Numbered from the stretch's first letter, positions 45,529 through 48,958 are shown. The stretch: DNA of 51,744 nt from Parcubacteria group bacterium Gr01-1014_29 (GCA_007376195.1 VMFT01000010.1:1-51744); one strand, 5' to 3'. Notes: a model not told the origin generated them from the sequence alone. A program made the numbers and translations.

Positions 45529-45618
45529 GGAGGAGTGGCCGAGTGGTTGAAGGCGCGGCTCTCGAAAAGCCGTATACGGGAAACCGTATCGTGAGTTCGA
45601 ATCTCACCTCCTCCGCCA
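45529..45618 (+). tRNA. tRNA-Ser (CGA)
   Basis: Acceptor GGAGGAG with CTCCTCC, discriminator G and an encoded CCA (45616-45618). The anticodon loop CTCGAAA gives CGA. A long variable arm (TATACGGGAAACCGTAT) is typical of serine. 90 nt. The restriction-modification unit begins 50 bases later. Confidence 0.95.
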
Positions 45619-45669: not shown

Positions 45670-46371
45670 ATGCAAAAACGAACATTACCCCAAATTAAGA
45701 AAGCACTTCAAGAACTTTCGAAAAAAGGTTGGATTAAATCTAATCGGAGCCACAATACCGGAATAGGTAAAACTTTAGAGGACTATCTTGGCATTACGGA
45801 AAACAATATTGCTCTGCCAGACTTTGGAGTAATGGAATTGAAATCTCAAAGACTGAACACTCTTTCGATGATGACTTTGTTTACGAAAAGTCCTGAGGGT
45901 ATTACAAATGCTGAAATAAGAAAACGCTTTGGTTACCCTGATCCTGAATTTCCTAAGATTAAAATTCTTCATCAAACAATTTTTGATGGCAAAAAGAATA
46001 GAATGGGTTTCCAAGCTACTATTGATGAGAAACAAGGAAAACTTCTTATTCTAAAAAATGGTAAACTATTAGGCTATTATAGTTTAGCGTTTTTGAGACA
46101 AAAAGCTGTAGAGAAAATAGGAAACGGACTCATATTAGTTCGTGCGGTGACAAAGAAAATTCGTGGACACGAGTATTTCCATTATAGAGATGCTTATATT
46201 CTGAAAGAAATTGATCCTACTAAATTTGTTACTCACTCAAAATACGATATTCGCTTAGGTGTATATCATAGCGGTAAAAATACTGGCAAACCACATGATC
46301 ATGGTTCTGCCTTTCGTCTTACAGAGAAAGCTCTACCGCTTTTGTTTAAAGTTCACAAAAAGATTCTTTAG
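45670..46371 (+). CDS. MvaI/BcnI-family restriction endonuclease
   Basis: GIGKTLEDYLGITENNIALPDFGVMELKSQR (about 31-61) is the signature of the MvaI/BcnI family, with the active-site residues Asp51, Glu56 and Lys58 as a D..ExK set. The rest matches as well: FGYPDPEFPKIKILHQTIF and a final HDHGSAFRLTEKALPLLF. The family cuts CC(W/S)GG-type sites as a monomer. ATG 45670 is preferred over TTG 45655. It converges on the methyltransferase gene with a 4-base tail overlap and sits 50 bases after tRNA-Ser. Base composition is clearly AT-rich compared with the neighbours, suggesting transfer. Confidence 0.88.
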   Translation: MQKRTLPQIKKALQELSKKGWIKSNRSHNTGIGKTLEDYLGITENNIALPDFGVMELKSQRLNTLSMMTLFTKSPEGITNAEIRKRFGYPDPEFPKIKILHQTIFDGKKNRMGFQATIDEKQGKLLILKNGKLLGYYSLAFLRQKAVEKIGNGLILVRAVTKKIRGHEYFHYRDAYILKEIDPTKFVTHSKYDIRLGVYHSGKNTGKPHDHGSAFRLTEKALPLLFKVHKKIL

Positions 46372-48233
46372 TTTTTTCTCAAAATAATAATACTCTCTTT
46401 ATTCATTGTTTCCTCTAAGGCGCCAACAATATTTGTTGGAGAGTTTTTGATTGGCATTCTCTTGCCGGGGATATTTCGGACTATTATATCTTCGCAAGTA
46501 AATCCTATTTTTTCTGCCAATTCAGCAATAATAAAGTCAGTGGGAATTCGTACTTGTTTAACTAGTCTGTTTCCAACAACAAGACAAAAATACTTTCCTG
46601 GTTTAAGTGTTCTGTGTGCTTGTTTTAAACATTCATTTAGCCCGATATTGAAACTCAATACATCTCTTGCTCTTGCCTCATCTTGTTTAGCAATTTTGTC
46701 CAGTGACTCCTTGAGGTAATCCGATGAAAGTACGTGAGTCAAGTTCTTGCTGGCTCTACCACCAAGTAGCTCATTATCTACGCCGGAAGCATCATTTGGA
46801 TCATCGAAAACATCAATCCACTGAGCTGAAAGGCGGCAAAACTGGCCGTAGGCTACTGTGGTTCGACTATCGCCATATGGAGGTGAAGTGATAATACAAT
46901 CAATAGAATTCGCCTTTATGCCGTTATCTTTTGATGAGTCACCATAAATTATTTTTGTCCACGAATCTTTATCGGCATCTTTATAAAAATCACTCATTCC
47001 GGCAATATTCTTCTCTGTGTTTTTTCTGAATATCCCCATGACATCAGGATCATGTTTTTCTAGTTTTTCTCCCTTAACCCGCACCAGTTTAAATTCACCA
47101 GTTTTTGTATTTGAGGAATACCGGACTGTCTCACTAAAAGCAACCATCAAAAAATTCTGAATGGTCTCGTCTTTTATTTCTCGCATAGCTTTCTTTAGTT
47201 TTGCAAGTTTAACTATGACCTTATCCTTAAACCAAAAATAAATATTCTTAAAATCTGGTCTTTGTATTTCGTTATCTTTAATCTTCTCTACTCTATTAAG
47301 TAAGGCTATGTATTCTTTTGTTAATTTTTGAGGATTGATTGGAGTTGTTTTTGCTTTCGCAAGGAAAATAGCTAAAGGATTAAGATCAATACCATAGGCA
47401 TTTCTCCCTATCAATTTACTTTCGACCAAAGCCGAACCTGAGCCACAGAAAATATCACAGATCGTATCACCCTCTTTACTATAAGTTTCTAACAATCTTC
47501 GCCCGACTTGCGGAATAAACATTGCTGGATAGGTATGTATTCCATGCGTATACGATTTTGTCTTTTCTCCTCTATAGTCCCACGAATAGTCTATTTTTCG
47601 GACATATTTCTCATCTCTTGATTGCCCTTGATCCAGTTGTGATTCGAGGTTTCGAATAATCTTTACGACAATGCCCCTTACCTCAACTTCATCACGATAG
47701 ATTGGGAACAATGTCGGATTTGCTGGTTGAAGTCTAAACTTGCCATTTTCACGGTACAGCTTTTTCAATGTTGCTTCATTATCATCGATGATTGCCACAA
47801 CTGTCTGGCCGTTCTCCGCAACCTCTTGTTTACGAATTACAACAATATCGCCATCGAAAATACCTTCATCAATCATACTGCTACCCTGAACACGCAGAGC
47901 GTAATGTTTTCCTTGCTTACTAATTTCGTCCTTTGCTATCGTGATAGTCTCATCGGAAATTTCTATAGCCTCAATGGGCTGACCCGCAGCGATCGCTCCT
48001 AGAATAGGAATTTCTATCATTTGCTTTGCCCCGACTGTCGAAACTGCACGGGGCTGATTGTGTTCTTTATTCAAAAAACCAGCATCTTGTAACTTGCTAA
48101 TGTAATAGTGAGATGTAGAAACAGAGGCAAGCTTAAATTTCTGCTTGATCTCCTCAAGGGATGGGGCGTAGCTGTGCTTTGCCATATAAACCTTTATAAA
48201 ATCTAGGACTTGAGTTTGCTTTTTTGTAAGCAT
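46368..48233 (-). CDS. LexA-like repressor fused to a DNA methyltransferase
   Basis: Residues 1-60 are the LexA winged helix (LTKKQTQVLDFIKVYMAKHSYAPSLEEIKQKF...YISKLQDAGFL). Residues 70-195 are the S24 self-cleaving peptidase: scissile Ala83-Gly84 in ILGAIAAGQP, Ser119 in RVQGSSMIDEGIFDGD, and the catalytic Lys at about 157 in ATLKKLY. From about 205 to 621 it is a DNA methyltransferase, with motif I DIFCGSGSALVESKLIGRNAYGIDLNP and motif IV TSPPYGDSR (450-453), the form typical of N4-cytosine enzymes such as M.MvaI. No stop or frameshift separates the parts. Its likely partner is the convergent endonuclease. The promoter is leaderless. Low G+C suggests transfer. Confidence 0.9.
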   Translation of the reverse strand: MLTKKQTQVLDFIKVYMAKHSYAPSLEEIKQKFKLASVSTSHYYISKLQDAGFLNKEHNQPRAVSTVGAKQMIEIPILGAIAAGQPIEAIEISDETITIAKDEISKQGKHYALRVQGSSMIDEGIFDGDIVVIRKQEVAENGQTVVAIIDDNEATLKKLYRENGKFRLQPANPTLFPIYRDEVEVRGIVVKIIRNLESQLDQGQSRDEKYVRKIDYSWDYRGEKTKSYTHGIHTYPAMFIPQVGRRLLETYSKEGDTICDIFCGSGSALVESKLIGRNAYGIDLNPLAIFLAKAKTTPINPQKLTKEYIALLNRVEKIKDNEIQRPDFKNIYFWFKDKVIVKLAKLKKAMREIKDETIQNFLMVAFSETVRYSSNTKTGEFKLVRVKGEKLEKHDPDVMGIFRKNTEKNIAGMSDFYKDADKDSWTKIIYGDSSKDNGIKANSIDCIITSPPYGDSRTTVAYGQFCRLSAQWIDVFDDPNDASGVDNELLGGRASKNLTHVLSSDYLKESLDKIAKQDEARARDVLSFNIGLNECLKQAHRTLKPGKYFCLVVGNRLVKQVRIPTDFIIAELAEKIGFTCEDIIVRNIPGKRMPIKNSPTNIVGALEETMNKESIIILRKN

Positions 48234-48239
48234 AATAAT

Positions 48240-48268
48240 ATTATAGAAAATAAATAGAATATATACAA
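48240..48268 (-). promoter_or_regulatory. Leaderless promoter of the LexA-methyltransferase gene
   Basis: Minus strand: -35 TTGTAT (48263-48268), exactly 17 bp, -10 TATAAT (48240-48245). The -10 ends 7 bases before the A of ATG 48233, so the transcript should begin at the start codon. The 10-bp palindrome ATAATATTAT (48235-48244) overlaps the -10 and may be an operator for the protein itself. Confidence 0.7.
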
Positions 48269-48402
48269 GTTAGTTTATCCCCATTTTGCCCTTTATCAGA
48301 CTTCGATTTCGGCACCTCAAACCATTCAGGATGTACTTTGTAGATAGCCCTTAATTCCTGTATAATTTTATCAATATCTTCGAATTTGAGGCATTTTTTA
48401 GT
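48246..48402 (-). pseudogene. Coding-like fragment upstream of the LexA fusion
   Basis: The minus-strand frame after TGA at 48403 reads LKFEDIDKIIQELRAIYKVHPEWFEVPKSKSDKG and runs to a stop at 48241 inside the promoter. It looks protein-like (helix and then PEWFEVP) but has no start codon or ribosome site. It may be a leftover of a gene disrupted when the restriction unit arrived, or chance. No family was recognised. Confidence 0.3.
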
Positions 48403-48553: not shown

Positions 48554-48958
48554 ATGCCAATAAGTGACATTGATATGTGGGAACTTCTTACAGTAACCAC
48601 AGAGGATAATTTGCGGGCGGACAATCAGAGGCTTAGATTTCGTATTTCCCAGCAAGCAATCGAGTTGTGCCAGGCAGCAGCCGTTTGTGACGAGCTGAAG
48701 ATAGAATTGGAACGATTGCGCAATCTTATAATAGAACACGATAGAAAAGGAGGACACAATCGGTGCTGGGAAAATTGTCGGGAACTGTCTAAAAAAGCGC
48801 TCGGGGCTGACGCGTCGCTGTGTTATGACCGTGAGTCAACACCGTTTGCCGAGATACTTCTCTGTTGTCTAGATTACCAAGCAAAACAGCGTGATCTTAC
48901 GCTGGATGACGAAACATTGGTAAAAAAGTTACTTGAGGTAGTGAAAAGTTATTTGTAG
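48554..48958 (+). CDS. 134-aa hypothetical protein
   Basis: ATG 48554 follows GGAAGGAG with good spacing. The protein opens MPISDIDMWELLTVTTEDN, with a coiled region (NQRLRFRISQQAIELCQAAAVCDELKIELERLRNLIIEHDRK) and then a Cys/Arg-rich stretch (HNRCWENCRELSKKA). It contains six Cys in total, not paired like a zinc ribbon. No family is recognised. It has its own operator-bearing promoter and a terminator. Confidence 0.6.
   Translation: MPISDIDMWELLTVTTEDNLRADNQRLRFRISQQAIELCQAAAVCDELKIELERLRNLIIEHDRKGGHNRCWENCRELSKKALGADASLCYDRESTPFAEILLCCLDYQAKQRDLTLDDETLVKKLLEVVKSYL

Follow-up and report, generated by a model that had tools for sequence, protein, structure and literature searches.

Why would a DNA methyltransferase carry an entire LexA repressor as its N-terminal part? 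The question is raised by a locus of Parcubacteria group bacterium Gr01-1014_29 (GCA_007376195.1, contig VMFT01000010.1, positions 1-51744), a stretch of 51,744 nucleotides that we call the window and whose coordinates are counted from its first letter. A preliminary description of this stretch, made without database searches, had proposed that a single 621-residue protein joins a full LexA (winged helix, Ala83-Gly84 cleavage site, Ser119, a Lys near 157) to a methyltransferase, and that the convergent gene encodes an MvaI/BcnI-type endonuclease with its D..E.K residues. Both claims held, the former with domain models and the latter with Pfam PF15515 and the alignment to the structures 2OA9 and 2ODH. 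The features of the unit are as follows:

45529-45618, plus strand: tRNA-Ser(CGA), directly upstream of the endonuclease gene
45670-46371, plus strand: MvaI/BcnI-family restriction endonuclease gene, 233 aa (Pfam PF15515, 155 bits for a gathering score of 25)
46368-48233, minus strand: LexA-methyltransferase fusion gene, one ORF of 621 aa without internal stop
46374-47591, minus strand: DNA methyltransferase domain, residues 215-620 (motif I FCGSG, motif IV TSPPY)
47592-47648, minus strand: inter-domain linker, residues 196-214 (pLDDT below 50 at residues 196-207 of the structure model)
47655-48020, minus strand: S24 self-cleavage domain, residues 72-193 (Pfam PF00717, 103 bits)
47987-47982, minus strand: Ala83-Gly84 site, with Ser119 and Lys157 in the S24 domain
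48036-48233, minus strand: LexA winged-helix DNA-binding domain, residues 1-66 (Pfam PF01726, 46 bits)

A complete LexA joined to a Type II methyltransferase

Positions 46368-48233 encode a complete LexA joined to a Type II methyltransferase. Residues 2-196 match the full LexA model (TIGR00498, 176 bits for a cut-off of 111), and both Pfam LexA_DNA_bind and Peptidase_S24 exceed their gathering scores. The best structural relatives of this part are the LexA of T. maritima (3K2Z) and that of E. coli, and its fold matches 3K2Z and 3JSO. It resembles these proteins in its whole-length match, its Ala-Gly site, and its Ser/Lys pair, whereas it differs from stand-alone repressors of about 200 residues in having a methyltransferase of about 420 residues attached to it. 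The C-terminal part, residues 215-620, is a Type II DNA methyltransferase (PADLOC MTase_II PDLC03322, 431 bits) that also matches Pfam N6_N4_Mtase (76 bits) and carries amino-methyltransferase motifs, with motif I (FCGSG, 262-266) preceding motif IV (TSPPY, 449-453). The TSPPY motif favours an N4 product. The N4-cytosine chemistry and the CC(W/S)GG specificity put forward in the preliminary description are still unproven, and so is self-cleavage. The AlphaFold model of the fusion has a mean pLDDT of 82 and a confident methyltransferase part; its low-confidence segments are residues 83-92, at Ala83-Gly84, and 196-207, at the junction between LexA and methyltransferase. The model was usable with an input of 97 sequences (pLDDT 82) and poor with 9 (pLDDT 50).

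The endonuclease and fusion genes are convergent and their stop codons overlap by 4 bp. The endonuclease aligns with the crystal structures of R.MvaI (2OA9, E 2e-28) and R.BcnI (2ODH) through D...E-x-K and HDHG, and is a clear member of the family of MvaI/BcnI systems, from which the unit differs by its LexA-fused methyltransferase. The mechanical ORF begins at TTG 45655, and the start likely lies at ATG 45670, as had been suggested before. The observed/expected ratio of CCWGG is 0.61 in 104 kb of DNA of the same genome; several other palindromes are similarly depleted, so this is weak evidence. No recognisable operator was found at the endonuclease promoter in the window, and therefore any effect of the fusion on the endonuclease would be indirect. 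The unit shares with C-protein Type II systems a unit-encoded DNA-binding regulator that is expected to control expression, but differs from them in lacking a separate XRE controller gene, for which the 51-bp gap between the end of the tRNA (45618) and the start of the endonuclease (45670) leaves no room. On the other side of the unit, the stretch of about 920 bp that separates the fusion from a DUF4446 gene contains a 134-aa ORF (48554-48958, plus strand) matching no family above the cut-off. A RecA gene was found in the genome of the window.

The family of fusions and its partner genes

The preliminary description had treated the fusion as a single oddity, which was too narrow, as the architecture is family-wide. 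In a sample of 384 genomes from the class to which the window belongs, searches with the LexA model and with the methyltransferase part identified at least 87 LexA-methyltransferase fusions, spread over at least 69 genomes by a count made by hand. In the LexA-model search many of the strongest matches lie in frames of 447-655 codons, and the search with the methyltransferase part revealed eight further close fusions, from different families and with 71-84% identity, as well as a ninth that is truncated at the end of its contig. When named genomes were scanned with an alignment of the window type, around 50 full-length fused homologues were added, at 61-95% identity. The two objections that had been raised beforehand, an assembly join or the lack of any homologue, thus fail: the same architecture recurs in these 87 proteins and 50 or so named homologues.

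The named homologues include Vogel-, Levy-, Staskawicz-, Wolfe-, Yonath-, Kerfeld-, Nomura-, Taylor-, Azam-, and Giovannonibacteria, together with Jackson-, Lipton-, Gribaldo-, Komeili-, Falkow-, Nealson-, Berkel-, Sung-, and Roizmanbacteria, among others. Full fusions were also found in MAGs labelled Omnitrophota, Deltaproteobacteria, and WOR-3, and a truncated one on an Armatimonadetes contig; we give these labels as they stand, their binning being unconfirmed. In the other classes of the phylum LexA mostly stands alone, in frames of 200-260 codons, and long frames account for about a dozen of the approximately 150 matches listed. Viral contigs yielded LexA relatives, none of which matched the methyltransferase part. 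Two IMG/VR contigs of 7.7 and 8.8 kb (L258 and L261) carry stand-alone LexA relatives in which Cys-Gly (IACGQP) replaces Ala-Gly, and in each case the next gene is a conserved one of about 270 aa. We found no description of LexA-methyltransferase fusions in the open-access literature that was searched, which did not cover a 2017 study of the SOS network in Patescibacteria (Sanchez-Osuna, Barbe, Erill 2017, doi 10.1111/1462-2920.13826) that deals with the same bacterial group and with LexA regulation.

The S24 domain is present in 87 of the 87 fusions and the LexA DNA-binding domain in 85. The C-terminal parts form eight clusters (BLAST clustering): 54 have N6/N4 motifs, 11 are m5C methyltransferases (GFPCQ), 9 are of the window type, 6 are D12-like, 4 have NPPY (Eco57I-like), and 3 are singletons. 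Ala83, Gly84, Ser119, and Lys157 are invariant in the 86 fusions that were aligned, whereas the DNA-recognition helix is variable, and the held-out domains of the named-genome set retain all four wherever they are complete at these positions. This makes the fusion a candidate for a RecA-triggered self-cleaving switch, an inference that awaits any demonstration of self-cleavage; the conserved residues might also persist for folding or dimerisation. In one genome (G284, locus L131, 3261-5103) the LexA winged helix and the S24-methyltransferase occupy two consecutive ORFs of 64 and 547 aa. This arrangement resembles a pre-cleaved version; it may reflect a genuine split or an error in the sequence.

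The downstream gene is convergent in 75 of 84 cases, with overlaps of 4 bp (28 cases) or 9 bp (19 cases). Many of these neighbours are restriction endonucleases according to Pfam and PADLOC: 11 TaqI, 6 MvaI/BcnI, 5 BsaWI, 3 Bsp6I, 2 BglII, and 2 PvuII, with further matches to the MamI, NgoFVII, MutH-like, and EndoVII/HNH nuclease families. A large minority has no family match. Gene calls were simple longest-ORF picks and some neighbours are perhaps mis-called. In one genome (G110) two different LexA-methyltransferase units, separated by some 2.3 kb, have a BglII-type and a BsaWI-like endonuclease, respectively. The methyltransferase type of the window is itself paired elsewhere with a BsaWI-like endonuclease (L042 and L046); a PspGI-like identity was considered for this alternative partner and rejected, as there was no PDB match and Pfam BsaWI matched instead. 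Among the window-type units, only one has a separate XRE controller (L047, 436-657). No endonuclease was found in G034, where the contig ends 16 bp past the last sense codon of the fusion.

LexA and methyltransferase genes are also associated without being fused. Four stand-alone LexA genes that we examined, which belong to a separate lineage (contig C36 of the window's genome, G001, G042, and G034), have a methyltransferase gene directly downstream, and LexA control of restriction-modification units is thus inferred to occur in both fused and operonic forms. The copy on C36 belongs to a second restriction-modification unit of the window's genome (G000:C36, L050, 380-3033), where the LexA gene lies about 45 bp from the methyltransferase gene, a MamI-family endonuclease is convergent, and there is a small XRE gene too. 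Two other LexA genes, nested in the fused clade (L160 and L147), have a nuclease-like gene behind them where a methyltransferase would be expected; they may be break-ups of fusions or forms that control an endonuclease. Outside Patescibacteria, at loci L236-L241 and L251, the same methyltransferase family is found behind other N-terminal HTH heads without S24, as judged by eye. These heads are excisionase/MerR-like in Nitrospirae and Poribacteria and of another kind in Clostridiales, and the convergent partners, also judged from sequence by eye, are MvaI- or BsaWI-like endonucleases.

The putative operator and its possible recognition code

If the LexA part acts as a repressor, a binding site is expected, and a candidate lies immediately upstream of the fusion gene:

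48240-48245, minus strand: TATAAT -10 box, overlapping the second half-site of the putative operator, 6 nt before the ATG
48243-48260, minus strand: putative LexA operator ATTCTAT-ttat-TTTCTAT, a direct repeat with an 11-bp period, 9 bp from its end to the ATG
48263-48268, minus strand: weak -35 box TTGTAT (3/6 match; a strict promoter scan made no call)
48275-48283, minus strand: TGGGGATAA, one mismatch from TGTGGATAA

With the -10 box this close to the start codon, the transcript of the fusion is possibly leaderless. The operator is the only match in the window (0.15 expected), and the repeat recurs across the family: a direct repeat at lag 11 with at least 6 of 7 matches is found upstream of 82 of 86 fusions, compared with about 18 in shuffled sequences, and is missing from the remaining 4. 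Perfect repeats (7/7) occur at this lag in 58 upstream regions and in 0-7 at all other lags tested. The strict operator NTTC[TG][AG]N-N4-NTTC[TG][AG]N is present in 71 of the 86 upstream regions, against 46 occurrences in 819 kb elsewhere on both strands, a background of 0.0095 per 170 bp. A palindromic operator was also sought and discarded, as no palindrome other than AT ones was enriched. The direct repeat with its 11-bp period has a precedent in the alphaproteobacterial LexA box GTTCN7GTTC (PMC3091678).

The half-sites are of two main types, TTCTA and TTCGG, and they follow residue 43 of LexA. Gln or Glu goes with GG in 30 of 30 cases and Phe, Tyr, or His with TA in 39 of 39 (69/69 altogether); the fusion of the window has Tyr, matching its TA-type half-sites. 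In the held-out named set the rule was obeyed in 25/25 and 7/7 cases (32/32), many of which are close relatives. On a tree of LexA, built from its C-terminal part with the trait columns excluded, the operator type switches 15 times or more, and the five supported independent pairs are all concordant. Few branches of this tree have good support (15 of 88 are starred), and five concordant pairs alone cannot reach p<0.05. Because the repeat is recurrent and covaries with residue 43, both on the tree and in the held-out set, each fused LexA probably has the repeat of its own promoter as recognition site. The sequence evidence is strong, but it is of that kind only, with no binding data.

The operator has four matches in the 1.08-Mb genome, and a clear promoter context is seen only for the one at the fusion gene. 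The 17-bp operator core has a second exact copy (G000:C41:21201-21217), which is intergenic and without a clear gene downstream. The operator is nearly private in this genome, which therefore suggests a local circuit rather than a regulon, and an SOS regulon under the control of the fusion was rejected on these grounds. As for the last element of the list, the sequence TGTGGATAA(C) equals a strong DnaA box and lies just upstream of 64 of the 86 fusion genes. However, TTATCCACA occurs 45 times in the window's genome (9 for the reversed control), also near other promoters, and we do not claim a DnaA regulation specific to fusion genes. The element might be a general promoter element or a link with DnaA.

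Proposed mechanism, rival explanations, and known systems

Our best reading is that the locus is a Type II restriction-modification system in which the methylase acts as a repressor of its own gene and as a candidate RecA-triggered self-cleaving switch, which would link DNA damage, self-inflicted or other, to methylase supply. We give it a probability of roughly 0.62. It rests on sequence-based observations, namely the architecture, the invariant cleavage chemistry, the recurrent operator with its covariation, the convergent partner, and the presence of RecA. In this reading, the LexA winged helix would bind the direct repeat of 11-bp period over the fusion promoter, and the fusion would limit its own synthesis. 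RecA filaments would arise from general damage or from cuts by the partner endonuclease at under-methylated chromosomal sites. They would lead the S24 domain to cut Ala83-Gly84, upon which the DNA-binding head would leave the S24-methyltransferase part, repression would be relieved, and new methylase would be made. The convergent overlap would let induced transcription run into the endonuclease gene, and endonuclease output may be lowered for this reason. The predicted outcome is a feedback set-point driven by the damage sensor of the cell, comparable to restriction alleviation; it could respond to RecA because the head of the methylase is a complete LexA with an S24 domain of the self-cleaving type.

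The repression, the cleavage, the direction of the response, the antisense effect, and the sequence specificity are inferred from sequence alone. The conditional mechanism of the preliminary description (LexA as repressor, possible RecA-stimulated cleavage, a shift in balance) fits everything we found, and as an inference it is supported by the invariant residues, the operator on the fusion's own promoter, the covariation of operator and helix, and the RecA gene of this genome. The main open point is the direction of the response, which hinges on the stability of the S24-methyltransferase fragment. The cleavage fragments of LexA are degraded in E. coli. If the S24-methyltransferase fragment were likewise unstable, damage would lower methylation rather than raise it.

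The most serious alternative is that the LexA part is merely a DNA-binding and dimerisation head, the methyltransferase autorepressing by concentration like M.Ecl18kI and self-cleavage having no role. This remains possible: autorepression through an N-terminal HTH is a known mode (PMC3874152), and the related methyltransferases outside Patescibacteria carry HTH heads that lack S24. Yet, a mere head would leave unexplained the Ala-Gly/Ser/Lys residues kept in all 86 aligned fusions despite widely diverged recognition helices and methyltransferases, as well as the S24 domain retained throughout the 87. One could also imagine the opposite physiological outcome, where cleavage upon damage or infection entails the loss of the methyltransferase and tips the unit towards restriction as an altruistic or anti-invader device instead of a protective one. 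The proteolysis of LexA fragments in E. coli and the pairing of most switches with a recognisable or possible nuclease gene speak for it. We regard it as unlikely, since cleavage would also derepress the methylase gene, and the operator lies on the methylase promoter while none was found at the endonuclease gene.

A DNA-binding head could in principle recruit the methyltransferase to particular promoters and make it a targeted epigenetic regulator. No specific evidence for this was found, and it is very improbable given that the operator is nearly private, with a clear promoter context at a single one of its genomic matches, and that the type of methyltransferase changes while the LexA head is kept. 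As for an assembly chimera or a gene-calling join, the assembly from which the window comes is fragmented (52 contigs), but no positive evidence of an artefact was found, and the possibility is all but excluded by the dozens of contigs in which independent, diverged homologues show the same junction.

Known systems offer parallels to the self-cleaving switch that we favour. Type II systems induce the SOS response when the balance of restriction and modification fails (PMC3874152). A LexA-headed methylase would join this induction to HTH autorepression, because RecA filaments would trigger cleavage of the head and derepression. The fusions resemble the HTH-autorepressing methyltransferases of the Ecl18kI group in their N-terminal DNA-binding domain and in the operator over their own promoter (PMC3874152; for the fusions, by sequence only). 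In contrast with that group (m5C, simple HTH, divergent R gene), the window fusion has a LexA head, amino motifs, and a convergent R gene, and many methyltransferase families use the LexA head. Compared with the LexA family, the fusion is distinguished by its C-terminal methyltransferase, its nearly private operator, and a restriction endonuclease as partner instead of a repair regulon. The proposed purpose, the protection of self-DNA when unmodified sites appear, is shared with Type I restriction alleviation (ClpXP/HsdR; PMC4231737, PMC11109961), which relies on proteolysis of the restriction subunit, whereas the route proposed here is self-cleavage of the LexA head on the methylase.

How restriction-modification systems spare their hosts after damage, or upon entering a new host, is a long-standing question, and the known Type II safeguards are C proteins, HTH methylases, and antisense RNA. 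If our reading is true, a methylase on a RecA-responsive switch would be a direct link from damage to modification. A bolder reading, for which we see as many reasons to doubt as to believe, is that LexA was recruited on a large scale across Patescibacteria as the regulatory head of many Type II methyltransferases. These would form a separate control class that senses chromosome breakage through RecA, including that caused by its own endonuclease, and resets methylase supply, each head having a co-evolving direct-repeat operator. In the window's class, this use of LexA would rival or exceed stand-alone LexA among strong matches. Were this so, the LexA head would be modular across unrelated methyltransferases, the pairs of heads and operators would constitute a natural series from which a recognition code of LexA becomes available (residue 43 with GG or TA half-sites), and the use of LexA in a major group of mostly uncultured bacteria would be revealed. 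The fusion proteins are of moderate size and testable in E. coli.

A last observation concerns the contigs of this assembly. One sequence, CCCGCATGAGGCGGGATTGTTAGGCGCGG...TTATCCACAG, is found about 60-75 bp from several contig ends, at the starts of G000:C6 and C14 (L171 and L175) and probably in C17, C26, and C32. It is a dispersed repeat of unidentified kind and probably a cause of the breaks in the assembly.
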